From positions 2,308,384-2,372,383 of the forward strand of contig NZ_CP017006.1 of NCBI RefSeq assembly GCF_001719125.1: a stretch of 64,000 bases of DNA. Reading direction: 5' to 3'. The number at the start of each line of letters is the position of its first letter. The first letter of the stretch is position 1. The notes under the pieces are model-generated. The model was not told the DNA's origin. It made no database searches and was given only the letters and a program-made list of their open reading frames with translations. The position numbers and the translations under genes were made by a program. Below are positions 10,221 to 57,924 of the stretch, piece after piece. The DNA is from Sulfolobus sp. A20 (GTDB taxonomy: Archaea; Thermoproteota; Thermoprotei_A; Sulfolobales; Sulfolobaceae).

Positions 10221-10529
10221 GGTTTGGGTTTCATCGGATCTCATATATATCGAGGGCTTTCACGGGAGTCAAGCGAAATTTTCGCCCTCACCCGCCCCAT
10301 TAGCGGGATAATCTAAACCCACCTAAGTGGGGGAACCCGCACATCTTTAGGAAAATATTCAATGAAGCATTCAACTGCCTATCTAACTTAAACCCACACT
10401 TCTCACATGTAAAGGTCTTACCAACCTTTCGGGATACATATCCACATCTGGGGCAAGACCTTTTTCATTCAGTGCAATGTAAGATATCAATTATAAACTT
10501 AATTCTCTCACTGGAACTGCTTACCATGG
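10221..10529 (-). mobile_element. TnpB (IS200/IS605 OrfB) C-terminal relic
   Basis: On the minus strand a frame reads SCPRCGYVSRKVGKTFTC and EKCGFKLDRQLNASLNIF, the treble-cysteine zinc ribbon and last catalytic-aspartate region of TnpB, then MCGFPHLGG at its C-terminus. A structured right-end sequence follows, with a gcccc-attagc-gggat palindrome. The N-terminal nine-tenths of the gene are missing. A close relative lies at 24148-24409. Boundaries are defined by comparison with the empty site at 9511-9578. Confidence 0.6.
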
Positions 10530-10617: not shown

Positions 10618-11091
10618 CTAATAGTATATCTGGAGAGATTTTAGAGCTGAGCGATAAGGTCTTATCTTATGAGAACGTGGTTGAGAGAAATACTGAGACG
10701 TGGAATTTAGCTGACCTCCTCCCCGCCCTAAAGGGCGAGGGTTCCCTTAGAGCGGTTCACTGGTTTATGGTTTACCGCCTTCACCACTTCATAGCTAGTG
10801 GGCTTTAACGCCCGCTCCGTTCATCCAGCGGTAGACCAAAGGCTGGGTCTTCAGCCACTTTACCCCTATCCCTTGGGTAGAGGAGCCCTCGCTCCACCCT
10901 CCTCGAGACTTGGGGATATGTACTGAGGAGGAAGGACACGTTCTCATTACGCTTTATGGCTTCCCTCCTCCCCAACAACTTTGCTTCACTAAAAGCTTAA
11001 AAACTTTACCTCATGGCGAGGCTTGTCCTTCCTTTGTCACTAACAAATTGGACGATTTTAATGAGAAGTTTAAAATAAACCTCATAAAGCT
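10618..11091 (+). pseudogene. HTH_10 regulator fragment split by a mobile element
   Basis: Bases 10620-10710 match 34961-35051, inside the bat-type regulator gene at 34721, nearly base for base (tatcttatgagaacgtggtt). The match resumes at 11040 with ctaacaaattggacgatttt and ends near 11085. Between the halves lies the 327-base element 10713-11039. Only about 140 bases of the regulator remain: no start, no helix-turn-helix and no stop. This is a partial duplication that later received an insertion. Confidence 0.6.
10713..11039. mobile_element. TnpB-less element of 327 bases, copy A
   Basis: The element starts gacctcctccccgcccta and ends gtccttcctttgtca. It is nearly identical to 17858-18178. 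It encodes no convincing protein but is full of local inverted repeats. On the minus strand its 3' end reads ccctttagggcggggagga, the right end seen after TnpB relics such as 15321-15495. I infer a deletion derivative of an IS200/IS605-family element that kept its ends and perhaps the RNA-coding right-end region. Insertion into the regulator fragment fixes both borders. Confidence 0.6.
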
Positions 11092-11137
11092 GACCTCCTC
11101 CTTGCCTTAAAGGGCGAGGCTTTTTCCATTTTATAAG

Positions 11138-12091
11138 ACTTATACCCATCTTGATTATTATGAAATTAGACTTGTTAGATACTTCTAAAACTATTCAACT
11201 GATGAGAGAGTAGTGAAAGGATAAGGTTTTTTATTCTACTACAATTGAGGTGATTATTGTAACTCCTTCTTTTTCTAACTCCTCCTTAATCTTCTTTTCA
11301 ACGTAGTTTGCTATTAAAAATAGCTTCACTGGCTTGTTGAAGAGTTGTGGTATCAACTTTTTTCTAATGAGTATTTGCTCTAAAGCACCCTCATCGGCAA
11401 AGTTCTTAACCTCAAAGACGTAAACGTAATCATCAGTCTCATAAAAATCAACCTCAAATATCCTACCCTTATCTATAATGCCAAGAGTATCAACAATACT
11501 ACCGTGTTTAACATTATTTGGGTTTATCCCATGCAACTCCAAAGCCTCCTTATAAACCATCATAATAGTCCTCTCCAAACCCCTACCAGCCCTACTAGTA
11601 AAACTACCAATCTCAGTAGCAAGCTTACTCAAAAGCTTAGAATTCTCCCTAATAGCCTCTTCATGTTCTTTCAAAATTTCACCCTGTTGTTTAATAGCCT
11701 CTTGTAGACCTTTAATTGCCTCTCCTTGTTGTTTTATAGCTTCTTGTAAGCTTTTGATTGCTTCCCCATGTTCTTTTAAAATTTCTCCTTGTTGTTTTAC
11801 AGTCTCTTGTAAACTTTTGATCGCCTCTTGTAAGCTTTTGATCGCCTCTCCATGCTCCTTCAAAATTTCTCCTTGTTTCTTAACAGTCTCTTCTAGGCTT
11901 TTTATGGCACTGCTGTTCTCTTCTAATTTCTTTATTACTACTTCGTCTTTTAGCTTGTCGTAAATTTTGTTTGCTAATGCTGATATGAATTTAGGATCAT
12001 TTAACAGCTTTTCAATCATCTCGTCAGTCTCAATCGCCATACAGTTTTAATCTTTAAAGAAAGGGCTTAATATTTATTTCCTATCTGAAAC
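11138..12091. repeat. Duplicated cassette, copy 1 (pairs with 36920-37893)
   Basis: About 950 bases are shared with 36920-37893, including non-coding flanks: acttatacccatcttgatt at the low end and cttaatatttatttcct at the other. The unit contains one gene with its promoter. No terminal inverted repeats are visible. Confidence 0.6.
11231..12040 (-). CDS. Coiled-coil protein with C-terminal PD-(D/E)XK nuclease-like domain (DUF3782-like)
   Basis: A 269-residue protein from ATG 12040. Residues 1-45 are a conserved head (MAIETDEMIEKLLNDPKF). Next come about twelve perfect or near-perfect heptads of types EAIKSLQ, ETVKQQG and EILKEHG, a long coiled coil. The last 125 residues hold RIFEVDFYETDD and VYVFEVKNF, an Asp...Glu-x-Lys pattern of PD-(D/E)XK nucleases. 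A near-copy at 37012 has thirteen heptads. Such proteins are common in Sulfolobales; their function is unknown. A restriction-like or DNA-end role is inference. A TATA-like taatatttat lies about 28 bases upstream. Confidence 0.8.
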   Translation of the reverse strand: MAIETDEMIEKLLNDPKFISALANKIYDKLKDEVVIKKLEENSSAIKSLEETVKKQGEILKEHGEAIKSLQEAIKSLQETVKQQGEILKEHGEAIKSLQEAIKQQGEAIKGLQEAIKQQGEILKEHEEAIRENSKLLSKLATEIGSFTSRAGRGLERTIMMVYKEALELHGINPNNVKHGSIVDTLGIIDKGRIFEVDFYETDDYVYVFEVKNFADEGALEQILIRKKLIPQLFNKPVKLFLIANYVEKKIKEELEKEGVTIITSIVVE

Positions 12092-17818: not shown

Positions 17819-18371
17819 GGTAACGTTATAACCGAAAAAGAAAACCTCGCAGGAACTGACCTCCTCCCCGCCCTAAAGGGCGAGGGTTCCCTTAGAGCGG
17901 TTCACTGGTTTATGGTTTACCGCCTTCATTTTCACCACTTCATAGCTAGTGGGCTTTGACACCCGCTCCGTTCATCCAGCGGTAGACCAAAGGCTGGGTC
18001 TTCAGCCACTTTACCCCTATCCCTTGGGTAGAGAAACCCCACCCTCCTCGAGACTTGGGGATATGTACTGAGGAGGAAGGACACGTTTTCACTACGCTTT
18101 ATGGCTTCCCTCCTCCCCAATAAATTTGCTTCACTTAAAAAACTTTACCCCAGGGCGAGGCTTGTCCTTCCTTTGTCAGATTGAAGTCATCAATTATTTT
18201 GAGCAGGTAGGGTAAAGGATTATCGTTAATGTTTCTCGAAAGGTAGCTCAATAGTTCGACTAACCCGAGCTCTGATACTACACCGCCCCCTTTTAACTCC
18301 TCTTTAGCAATAAACCTTCTCTCGTCCTTACTTATAGCTAGTACGATGACACTAGTATCGAAATACCTCAA
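17819..18371 (-). pseudogene. vapC: VapC toxin (PIN domain) split by two elements
   Basis: The start at ATG 18371 overlaps the antitoxin gene by 4 bases. It reads MRYFDTSVIVLAISKDERRF, with the first PIN aspartate, and VVSELGLVELLSYLSRN with the conserved glutamate. After KIIDDFNLT the frame enters the inserted 17858-18178 element, which adds the tail KEGQASPWGKVF and a stop. Beyond that element 39 bases continue the protein plausibly (LVPARFSFSVITL), and then the 17567 MITE follows. The later PIN acidic residues are lost, so the toxin should be inactive. Confidence 0.7.
17858..18178. mobile_element. TnpB-less element of 321 bases, copy B
   Basis: It starts gacctcctccccgcccta and ends gtccttcctttgtca, and is nearly identical to 10713-11039 apart from small indels. 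It sits inside vapC. Its structure is as described for copy A. Confidence 0.65.
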
Positions 18372-18613
18372 AACCTGTCCCTTTCTTTAAGGAATTCCTC
18401 TAATGGCTTATCTATCAAGACTTCTACCCCTCTCTTCTTCAACTCCTCATACTTCTTTATTATATCCTCCCAAGACTTAAACTCGTCAAGTCCCACCTTG
18501 ATTACAGTATTCAGCGCTTCGTTCCTTGAACTAAATATACCCATTGCTATGAGTTCATCAATCTTCTTTAACACCTCTTTATCGATCCTTATGGTCACAG
18601 TAGTAGTACCCAT
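18368..18613 (-). CDS. vapB: VapB-type ribbon-helix-helix antitoxin
   Basis: An 81-residue protein from ATG 18613. The N-terminus TTVTIRIDKEVLKKIDELI and SSRNEALNTVIKVGLDEF is a ribbon-helix-helix DNA-binding domain. The C-terminal half (IIKKYEELKKRGVEVLIDKP) is charged and should be the toxin-binding arm. The gene overlaps vapC by 4 bases. The TATA-like aaagtttatg about 27 bases upstream suggests a leaderless, autoregulated transcript. The antitoxin is intact while its toxin is broken. Confidence 0.8.
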   Translation of the reverse strand: MGTTTVTIRIDKEVLKKIDELIAMGIFSSRNEALNTVIKVGLDEFKSWEDIIKKYEELKKRGVEVLIDKPLEEFLKERDRF

Positions 18614-25550: not shown

Positions 25551-25620
25551 TAAAGGTGGAACCGCTTTTCCTAAACGCGTCTCTCATATACATTTCTGTG
25601 AGTAGAGGGTTAAAAAGTCT

Positions 25621-25665
25621 GACTTCCTCCCCGCTTTAAAGGGCGAGGCTTGCCCTTCCTTTGTC
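25621..25665. repeat. 45-base IS200/IS605-derived repeat
   Basis: gacttcctccccgctttaaa, then gggcgaggcttgcccttcct and ttgtca. It has the same two ends as the 327-base elements, joined without the middle. The second full copy is 37989-38033. Confidence 0.55.
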
Positions 25666-26005
25666 ACAGATCCTCTTGGATCTTTGTCACCATCTAGGTA
25701 ATATGAACGTTCAAGCATTATTATCGCAAGAATCAACTAAATCTACCCTAACCTTAGAGAGTAGGGTAAAGAAATAGTTTACAAACTGAGAAAAGCCTCA
25801 CTCATTAGGTCAGGGTCTGTAAAAGAATTAATTATTTAAAAACGACTTAGAAAAGAGAAATGGATAACTCGCGTTCACGATTCTAAAGTTAAGTGGGAGC
25901 CATAGACCTTAATACGTTATCTTTTAGGGAAAGTTTACTATCAGTACTAAGAAGTCCTTCTCCCCCTTAGGATTTACAGCCTTTTTTAGGCCTCTAGTTT
26001 AAGCC
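25666..26005. other. Intergenic stretch, nothing recognised
   Basis: No frame of note, no repeat and no RNA-like fold was seen. It may contain decayed DNA, since it lies between a transposon scar and a truncated transporter. Confidence 0.3.
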
Positions 26006-37893: not shown

Positions 37894-37988
37894 CTAACTT
37901 CCTCTCCTTAAGGAGATCCCCCTAATTGGTTCTCATAAGAGTGGTAGTAGAGAAGCTTAGAGAATTATTGTTGCAACAATGCGTCTCT

Positions 37989-38033
37989 GACCTCTTCTTG
38001 TCTTAAAGGGCGAGGCTTGCCCTTCCTTTGTCA
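37989..38033. repeat. 45-base IS200/IS605-derived repeat
   Basis: gacctcttcttgtcttaaag then ggcgaggcttgcccttcctt and tgtca. This is the second full copy of the 25621 repeat. Confidence 0.55.
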
Positions 38034-57425: not shown

Positions 57426-57924
57426 GGTTAATATGGAATAAGGGGGTTACAAATTTGGTCGTATATGCCATAATTATATATCTTTACTTTTCTAACTAAT
57501 ATATTTTTTCTAAAGAATGACCTTTGAGTACATTTTGTGAGGGATTAAAAGTATCTTTTCTTAAATCGAGCATATGTGAATGCTGTTATATAAGCCCGGC
57601 TTCCTCCCCCGCCATAGAGGCTTTCATCACTTTGTAAAAATATTAATAATATTCAGCTTATGGTGAACTAGATTATTTAAATGATTACACATTTATACTT
57701 TCAAGACGGGAATATATCTGTGGACAACATTTTTGTTATTTTAATATGAGCATAATTCATTTAGGGAAGTTTATTAACAAAGAGAACGACAAGCCTCGCC
57801 CTTTAGGACTAGGAGGAGGTCAGAAAGAATAATTTTTCCGATTAGGTAGTATCTAATTAGGTAGTATCTAAACAGATTAATCTTAATTGCCTTAAAGTGA
57901 AATTTTTGATCACGCATAGTCCAG
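57426..57924. other. Intergenic region with several repeat relics
   Basis: At 57596-57635 ggcttcctcccccgccatag then aggctttcatcactttgtaa is a short repeat. At 57718 tgtggacaacatttttg is an IS6-type end scrap. At 57785-57825 acaagcctcgccctttagga and ctaggaggaggtcag is an inverted short repeat. gattaggtagtatctaatta near 57840 is a small tandem repeat. No gene. Confidence 0.4.

Follow-up and report, generated by a model that had tools for sequence, protein, structure and literature searches.

Probable omega-RNA minigenes derived from IS200/IS605 TnpA-TnpB transposons in Sulfolobus sp. A20 and other Sulfolobaceae

Analysis of a 64,000-nucleotide stretch of the genome of Sulfolobus sp. A20 (hereafter the window; positions 2308384-2372383 of a single contig of 2,688,317 bp) revealed two copies, A and B, of a repeat that is best read, with somewhat more than even confidence, as a non-autonomous IS200/IS605 minigene for an omega RNA that borrows both TnpA and TnpB in trans. 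The copies in A20, an isolate from Costa Rica (PMC5127849), are probably stranded. Both lie on the minus strand and are 91.3% identical over 335 columns (BLASTN, E 4e-137; 11 mismatches and three gaps), which bears out the two near-copies described in an earlier note on this DNA. As that note also said, neither contains a plausible protein: no long ORF lies inside either copy, and no transposase gene was found in them. Both fold more strongly than dinucleotide shuffles (z -2.5 and -2.3). The ends claimed for the repeat are real, but its edges had to be moved. Alignment with other A20 copies and with complete IS elements places copy A at 10711-11035, and alignment places copy B at 17856-18174, with the right end (...GGAGGAGGTCAG) at 10711 and 17856 and not at 10713 and 17858. 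On the other side, the extents 10713-11039 and 17858-18178 had taken in the TGAC tetranucleotides at 11036-11039 and 18175-18178 (minus strand), which are host target DNA outside the element and a candidate TAM. Nearly every copy has a conserved TGAC at its left edge. The count of two copies is correct for the window but not for the genome, where some 10 copies are near full length and some 10 more are diverged or partial. Covariance model R1, built from the 5' part of the A20 copies, found 20 loci in A20; several copies have lost parts of the scaffold and many are decayed.

The mini-elements share one order of parts: left end, box, hairpin domain and then TACATATCCCC (tnpB codons ILHIPES) through to TCAG. 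On the minus strand, the left end of copy A (AAAGGAAGGACAAGCCTCGCC, 11015-11035) matches the left ends of complete TnpA-TnpB elements of SMV1, pMGB1 and pHVE14, and that of copy B (18154-18174) is identical to it. Next comes a BRE/TATA-like box, a putative promoter, represented by GGTAAAGTTTTTAAG in copy A (10996-11010), where it is inherited from the IS left end, and by GGTAAAGTTTTTTAAG in copy B (18134-18149). A loose GGTAAAG-TTTTTAA pattern of this box fits 48 of 52 elements, and a comparable box is found 5' of tnpA in complete elements. The 5' hairpin occupies 10925-10973 in copy A (stem 10962-10973 with 10925-10936), as indicated by covariation and by a homologous hairpin in the zinc-ribbon codons of tnpB, and 18070-18118 in copy B (18107-18118 with 18070-18081), as indicated by sequence and fold. 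The predicted omega-RNA scaffold, made up of the tnpB 3' tail and the right end, extends over 10711-10922 in copy A (matches to the RNA families sot0042 and HgcC; about 80% identity to the tnpB tail) and 17856-18067 in copy B (sot0042 and HgcC matches). It includes a right-end hairpin, CCTCGCCCTTTAGGGCGGGG at 10721-10740 in copy A, that is common to tnpB right ends. In copies with an intact right end the scaffold ends exactly there, at TCAG, and unrelated flanks stand in the guide position. By analogy with IS200/IS605 TnpB, and with a length of 20 nt assumed, the predicted guide of copy A is the host flank at 10691-10710 and that of copy B, from its position, the flanking DNA at 17836-17855 (both minus strand). 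The earlier description of a structured right end that had been kept was sound for the right part, which is a complete guide-RNA region, but left two parts unnoticed, the promoter-like box and the 5' hairpin. With these the copies look like complete RNA minigenes, more than kept right ends.

Comparison with complete IS200/IS605 elements revealed the ancestry of the repeat. Positions 120-331 of a 331-nt query matched the tnpB 3' end and right end of such elements at 79-83%, a match that recurs in many Sulfolobaceae genomes, and positions 3-27 matched the left end of complete TnpA-TnpB elements. The reference elements, from virus SMV1 and plasmids pMGB1 and pHVE14, carry TnpA (PF01797; E 5.6e-43 in the SMV1 element) and TnpB (PF01385 and PF07282). 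The mini-elements share both left and right ends with these autonomous elements of the Y1-transposase type, and lack tnpA, nearly all of tnpB and a short protein-constrained block between hairpin and scaffold. Judged by their sequence, copies A and B descend by internal deletion from TnpA-TnpB elements of the IS200/IS605 family that target TGAC, and are comparable to MITEs, PATEs and SMN elements. No full-length mini-element of their type was found in phage and plasmid collections, where complete IS elements are present.

Members of the IS200/IS605 family characteristically insert 3' of a short target and do not duplicate it. In S. tokodaii, copy L133 lies within a gene whose intact counterparts in genomes G028, G029 and A20 keep TGAC, so that at this site insertion occurred 3' of the short target with no duplication and no terminal inverted repeats; for copies A and B, the position of TGAC is the corresponding evidence. 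This form of insertion is as would be expected from TnpA acting in trans. The earlier note had proposed RNA-only derivatives moved in trans, or stand-alone guide-RNA genes. The copies are RNA-only derivatives in sequence and the form of insertion fits such movement, but no Y1 TnpA is detectable in the A20 genome and no intact TnpB of the parental kind was found there, only broken relics; copies A and B are therefore probably stranded. A20 also has one 383-aa TnpB ORF of another kind, with an apparently broken N-terminal part.

Copy B cuts a VapC-like PIN toxin gene (18179-18371, minus strand) after about 65 of about 142 codons, and the remaining vapC part was not found just beyond the copy. 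The cut gene adjoins a ribbon-helix-helix (vapB-like) gene in the region 18179-18613. On either side of copy A stand the relic of a TnpB zinc ribbon and a further right end, which weakly matches HgcC (10354-10461 and 11077-11171), and its neighbourhood reads as a cluster of transposon debris.

Analysis of the window with Rfam models by E-value found sot0042 (RF02656) at full length (model positions 1-174) in both copies, at 10720-10921 (E 2.5e-6) and 17865-18066 (E 2.6e-6) on the minus strand, each with 37.9 bits against a gathering score of 88. These were the best two Rfam matches and the only such ones in the 64 kb. HgcC (RF00062) came next, at 10702-10843 and 17843-17966 (score 37.3, E 5.5e-5; gathering score 50). 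All scores reported here lie below the gathering scores, and a search at those scores gave no match. RF02656 consists of tnpB-overlapping RNAs of H. salinarum that are now recognised as omega RNAs (PMC12558985). The earlier note had named a covariance-model comparison as the check on guide-RNA structure, and its outcome is positive: a conserved tnpB-derived omega scaffold structure runs through both copies, though below the gathering score. The 5' boundary of the sot0042 match coincides with the start of the tnpB-tail homology. The same families were matched in the SMV1 element, which is of the parental kind (sot0042, E 1.6e-11), and in mini-elements L133, L147 and L161. Overall, these matches support the right part of each copy as a complete TnpB guide-RNA region, which would be transcribed and loaded into TnpB. 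Through GGGGAGGAGGUCAG, HgcC also matches the right ends of TnpB elements (L051:3064-3233; window 10702-10843), and this family of archaeal non-coding RNAs is possibly a TnpB guide RNA in its own right.

Eight complete tnpB genes were compared in pairs at codon positions 1/2/3, which separated RNA constraint from protein constraint. Divergence was.172/.093/.444 in the tnpB body (start to column 150) and.213/.135/.476 up to the zinc ribbon. The two hairpin strands gave 0/0/.173 and 0/.097/.235, and the NADLNGAIN block between them and the tail gave.068/0/.475; third-position divergence is thus lowered in the strands and not in the block, which points to an extra constraint on the strands. From ILHIPES to the stop, divergence was.16/.164/.149. 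The tail has no codon-position bias and its third positions are three times more conserved than those of the body, which argues that it is constrained as RNA. The NADLNGAIN-coding block is absent from the mini-elements, which on these figures retain the two RNA-constrained blocks without the protein-constrained one between. The 5' hairpin was also considered as a feature specific to mini-elements; this was rejected, as model R1 matches a counterpart inside complete tnpB over the zinc-ribbon codons CSLCGEA...CPRxGKV.

The 5' stem, of 9 bp, was compared across 20 mini-elements: it is paired in 90.1% of cases, with changes on both sides in seven of the nine pairs. Double-change cells number 27, against 10.0 +/- 2.5 in shuffled data and 2-9 with slid partners. 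Stems such as GGGGAGGAGGGA/TCCTTCCTCCTC or GCGTGAGGA/TCCTCATGC are incompatible with the CxxC codons of the tnpB stem; the compensatory changes therefore postdate the loss of coding. Some of them could have come from hairpin-templated mutation. In the tail, compared among 26 mini-elements, double changes that keep the pairing are seen at 14 of 25 consensus pairs, and part of this scaffold covariation may have been inherited from different tnpB parents.

These compensatory changes also bear on another explanation, that the repeats are ordinary TnpA-mobilised MITEs whose omega region is a functionless passenger, kept since the deletions end at hairpins. The deletion edges are indeed located at hairpins, many A20 copies are decayed, and precedents exist among non-autonomous IS200/IS605 elements in SMN1 of Sulfolobus, moved by the ISC1733 transposase (PMC3718332), and in the PATEs of Haloquadratum (PMC3119063). 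Against it stand the compensatory stem changes made after coding was lost. Possibly mobile end-only forms of about 48 bp, with fused left and right hairpins and no RNA part, also accompany the mini-elements, with about 14 copies in A20 and about 14 in G010 (in the window at 25619-25667, 37987-38033 and 57771-57823, PATE-like), which argues against this explanation. Conservation in the A20 copies is also no lower in the interior (AAGGGATAGGGGTAA.97) than at the presumed TnpA-binding ends (.83 for the left end and.825 for the right-end hairpin), a comparison that is suggestive only, as the copies were found by similarity. We regard this explanation as unlikely, but as one to be taken seriously.

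According to the minigene reading, the BRE/TATA-like box would drive an RNA of about 265 nt plus the guide. As the scaffold ends at the IS right end, host DNA beyond TCAG would be placed in the guide position. TnpA supplied in trans would move the mini-element to TGAC sites; TnpB supplied in trans would load its RNA and cut the empty site (TGAC with a match to the guide) once this had re-formed, and repair after the cut would restore the mini-element. Both proteins would be borrowed, and the A20 copies would be stranded descendants of such elements. In S. islandicus, TnpB7, which is a different TnpB, can work with a guide RNA that a separate plasmid supplies, and the full length of about 176 nt is required (PMC11043419); processed omega RNAs of other TnpBs range from 79 to 466 nt (PMC10278001). 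By this measure, the scaffold of about 212 nt would be long enough.

A kept RNA might also act as a decoy, occupying TnpB with no useful targeting and either lowering the activity of the parental transposon or shielding the element. In its favour, the scaffold that TnpB should recognise is kept behind a separate promoter-like box, in up to 20 copies per genome. The right end, however, is exact to TCAG at the target edge, so that each new copy acquires a guide fully matching the site it would leave empty; a decoy has no need of this. TCAG is required for transposition too, and the exact right end is therefore still compatible with a decoy. On balance we consider a decoy function improbable, and the protein-borrowing minigene is retained as the preferred reading.

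Analysis of 31 Sulfolobaceae genomes revealed the mini-element architecture in 13, A20 included, with model matches in two more. The loci fell into two clear classes, one of mini-elements measuring about 300-375 bp and lacking an upstream tnpB, the other of elements with tnpB, in a search whose query was biased to the known tail, so that other deletion classes could escape it. A maximum-likelihood tree was built from 39 tails, 15 of complete elements and 24 of mini-elements. It is moderately supported (nine of 36 inner branches starred) and needs eight changes between these two states, at least four of them forced by well-supported branches, and a single origin of mini-elements was recovered in no bootstrap tree. 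In this tree the mini tails of S. tokodaii (G030), G020, G022 and G017 adjoin complete elements of the same or related genomes, and no complete element falls in the group made up of the tails from A20, G023 and G010. The mini-elements would have either originated repeatedly or had their tails converted by resident elements, since gene conversion with the latter could mimic independent origins on the tree; either way, the scaffold tracks the resident TnpB. A second type of mini-element (L099, L100, L151, L152 and L164) has a different 5' domain, TGTAGA...TCTACA around two small hairpins, with the same tail. A different right end (...CGGTAGAYC...TCAT) was observed in L101, L151, L152 and L160, and perhaps reflects a switch of transposase.

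The S. tokodaii genome has seven Y1 transposase genes, nine mini-elements (model count) and complete TnpA-TnpB elements with both proteins intact; one TnpB of this clade lies in G030:C1:1157217-1159500. Near-identical mini-elements are found there (97.8-99.4%) and in G023 (93.7-98.6%, 11 copies). Mini-elements are also present in seven genomes without a detectable Y1 transposase (A20, G003, G010, G014, G019, G022 and G023) and are abundant in A20 and G023; one possibility is delivery by plasmids or viruses, of which pMGB1 and SMV1 are examples with complete elements. Host-domesticated regulatory or antisense RNAs of transposon origin would fit the retention of a structured RNA in hosts without TnpA, and transposon-derived antisense RNAs are known in S. 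solfataricus (cited in PMC12817955), but the near-identity of copies within genomes and their occurrence at unrelated sites with unrelated flanks, where no conserved position was seen, make this highly improbable. A host role at fixed loci was considered separately and was unsupported, the flanks of the copies being unrelated.

Beyond A20, the recurrence of mini-elements across Sulfolobaceae, some of them apparently of separate origin, points to the RNA on its own as what may be retained. It leads to a wider and more tentative proposal, to which we give a little less than an even chance: that TnpB transposons repeatedly spawn guide-RNA-only parasites of RNA-guided homing, which keep promoter, 5' hairpin and omega RNA, have a scaffold that tracks the resident TnpB, and persist on borrowed proteins, with TnpA for movement and TnpB for cutting at the empty sites that they leave. 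If true, the guide RNA alone, apart from the nuclease, would be the unit kept by selection in a selfish element, and the known Sulfolobus mini-elements would be more than deletion debris. S. tokodaii, with complete and RNA-bearing mini-elements together, would then offer a natural test system for the role of TnpB in transposon retention. For tnpB itself, the comparison shows which part is RNA-constrained and which protein-constrained.

Among known elements, SMN1 and SMN2 are among the closest to copies A and B by description, the basis on which they were compared: they are alike in size, host group, non-autonomy and use of an IS200/IS605-type transposase in trans. SMN1 is reportedly an element of S. 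islandicus REN1H1. It is 320 bp long and its transposition depends on the ISC1733 transposase, and both SMN1 and SMN2 are non-autonomous in Sulfolobus (PMC3718332, PMC3839810). SMN2 was sought in pMGB1 as a short left-end/right-end pair of the present type, and none was found. The PATEs of Haloquadratum walsbyi are likewise IS605-derived, with near-terminal palindromes, a short targeting sequence and no duplication, and their 52-bp terminal-only forms resemble the end-only elements of about 48 bp found here; a retained guide RNA, a promoter and a covarying 5' hairpin, as observed or predicted in our mini-elements, are not described in the accessible part of the PATE report (PMC3119063). In the literature surveyed, which covers the key papers incompletely, no report was found of an omega RNA in SMN1 or SMN2, or of any non-autonomous IS200/IS605 element described as an omega-RNA carrier. 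Non-autonomous IS200/IS605 elements (SMN1, SMN2, PATEs) are thus already known, and their carriage of an omega RNA is apparently new.

Among known guide RNAs, those of S. islandicus TnpB7 and SisTnpB1 (PMC11043419, PMC10640517) likewise comprise the tnpB 3' end and the right end, and TnpB7 can use its guide RNA in trans. Their elements differ in having a TTTAA target and, in the TnpB7 group, a TTCAC end, whereas those analysed here lie 3' of TGAC and end in TCAG. The likeness to HgcC is one of model match, over the 3' half and right end, and its relation to TnpB is proposed in this study. The likeness to sot0042 of Halobacterium extends to a full-length model match on both copies and to the same 5' boundary as the tnpB homology; unlike sot0042, which lies inside tnpB, the scaffold described here is free of a protein gene and has its own TATA-like box and an added 5' hairpin.
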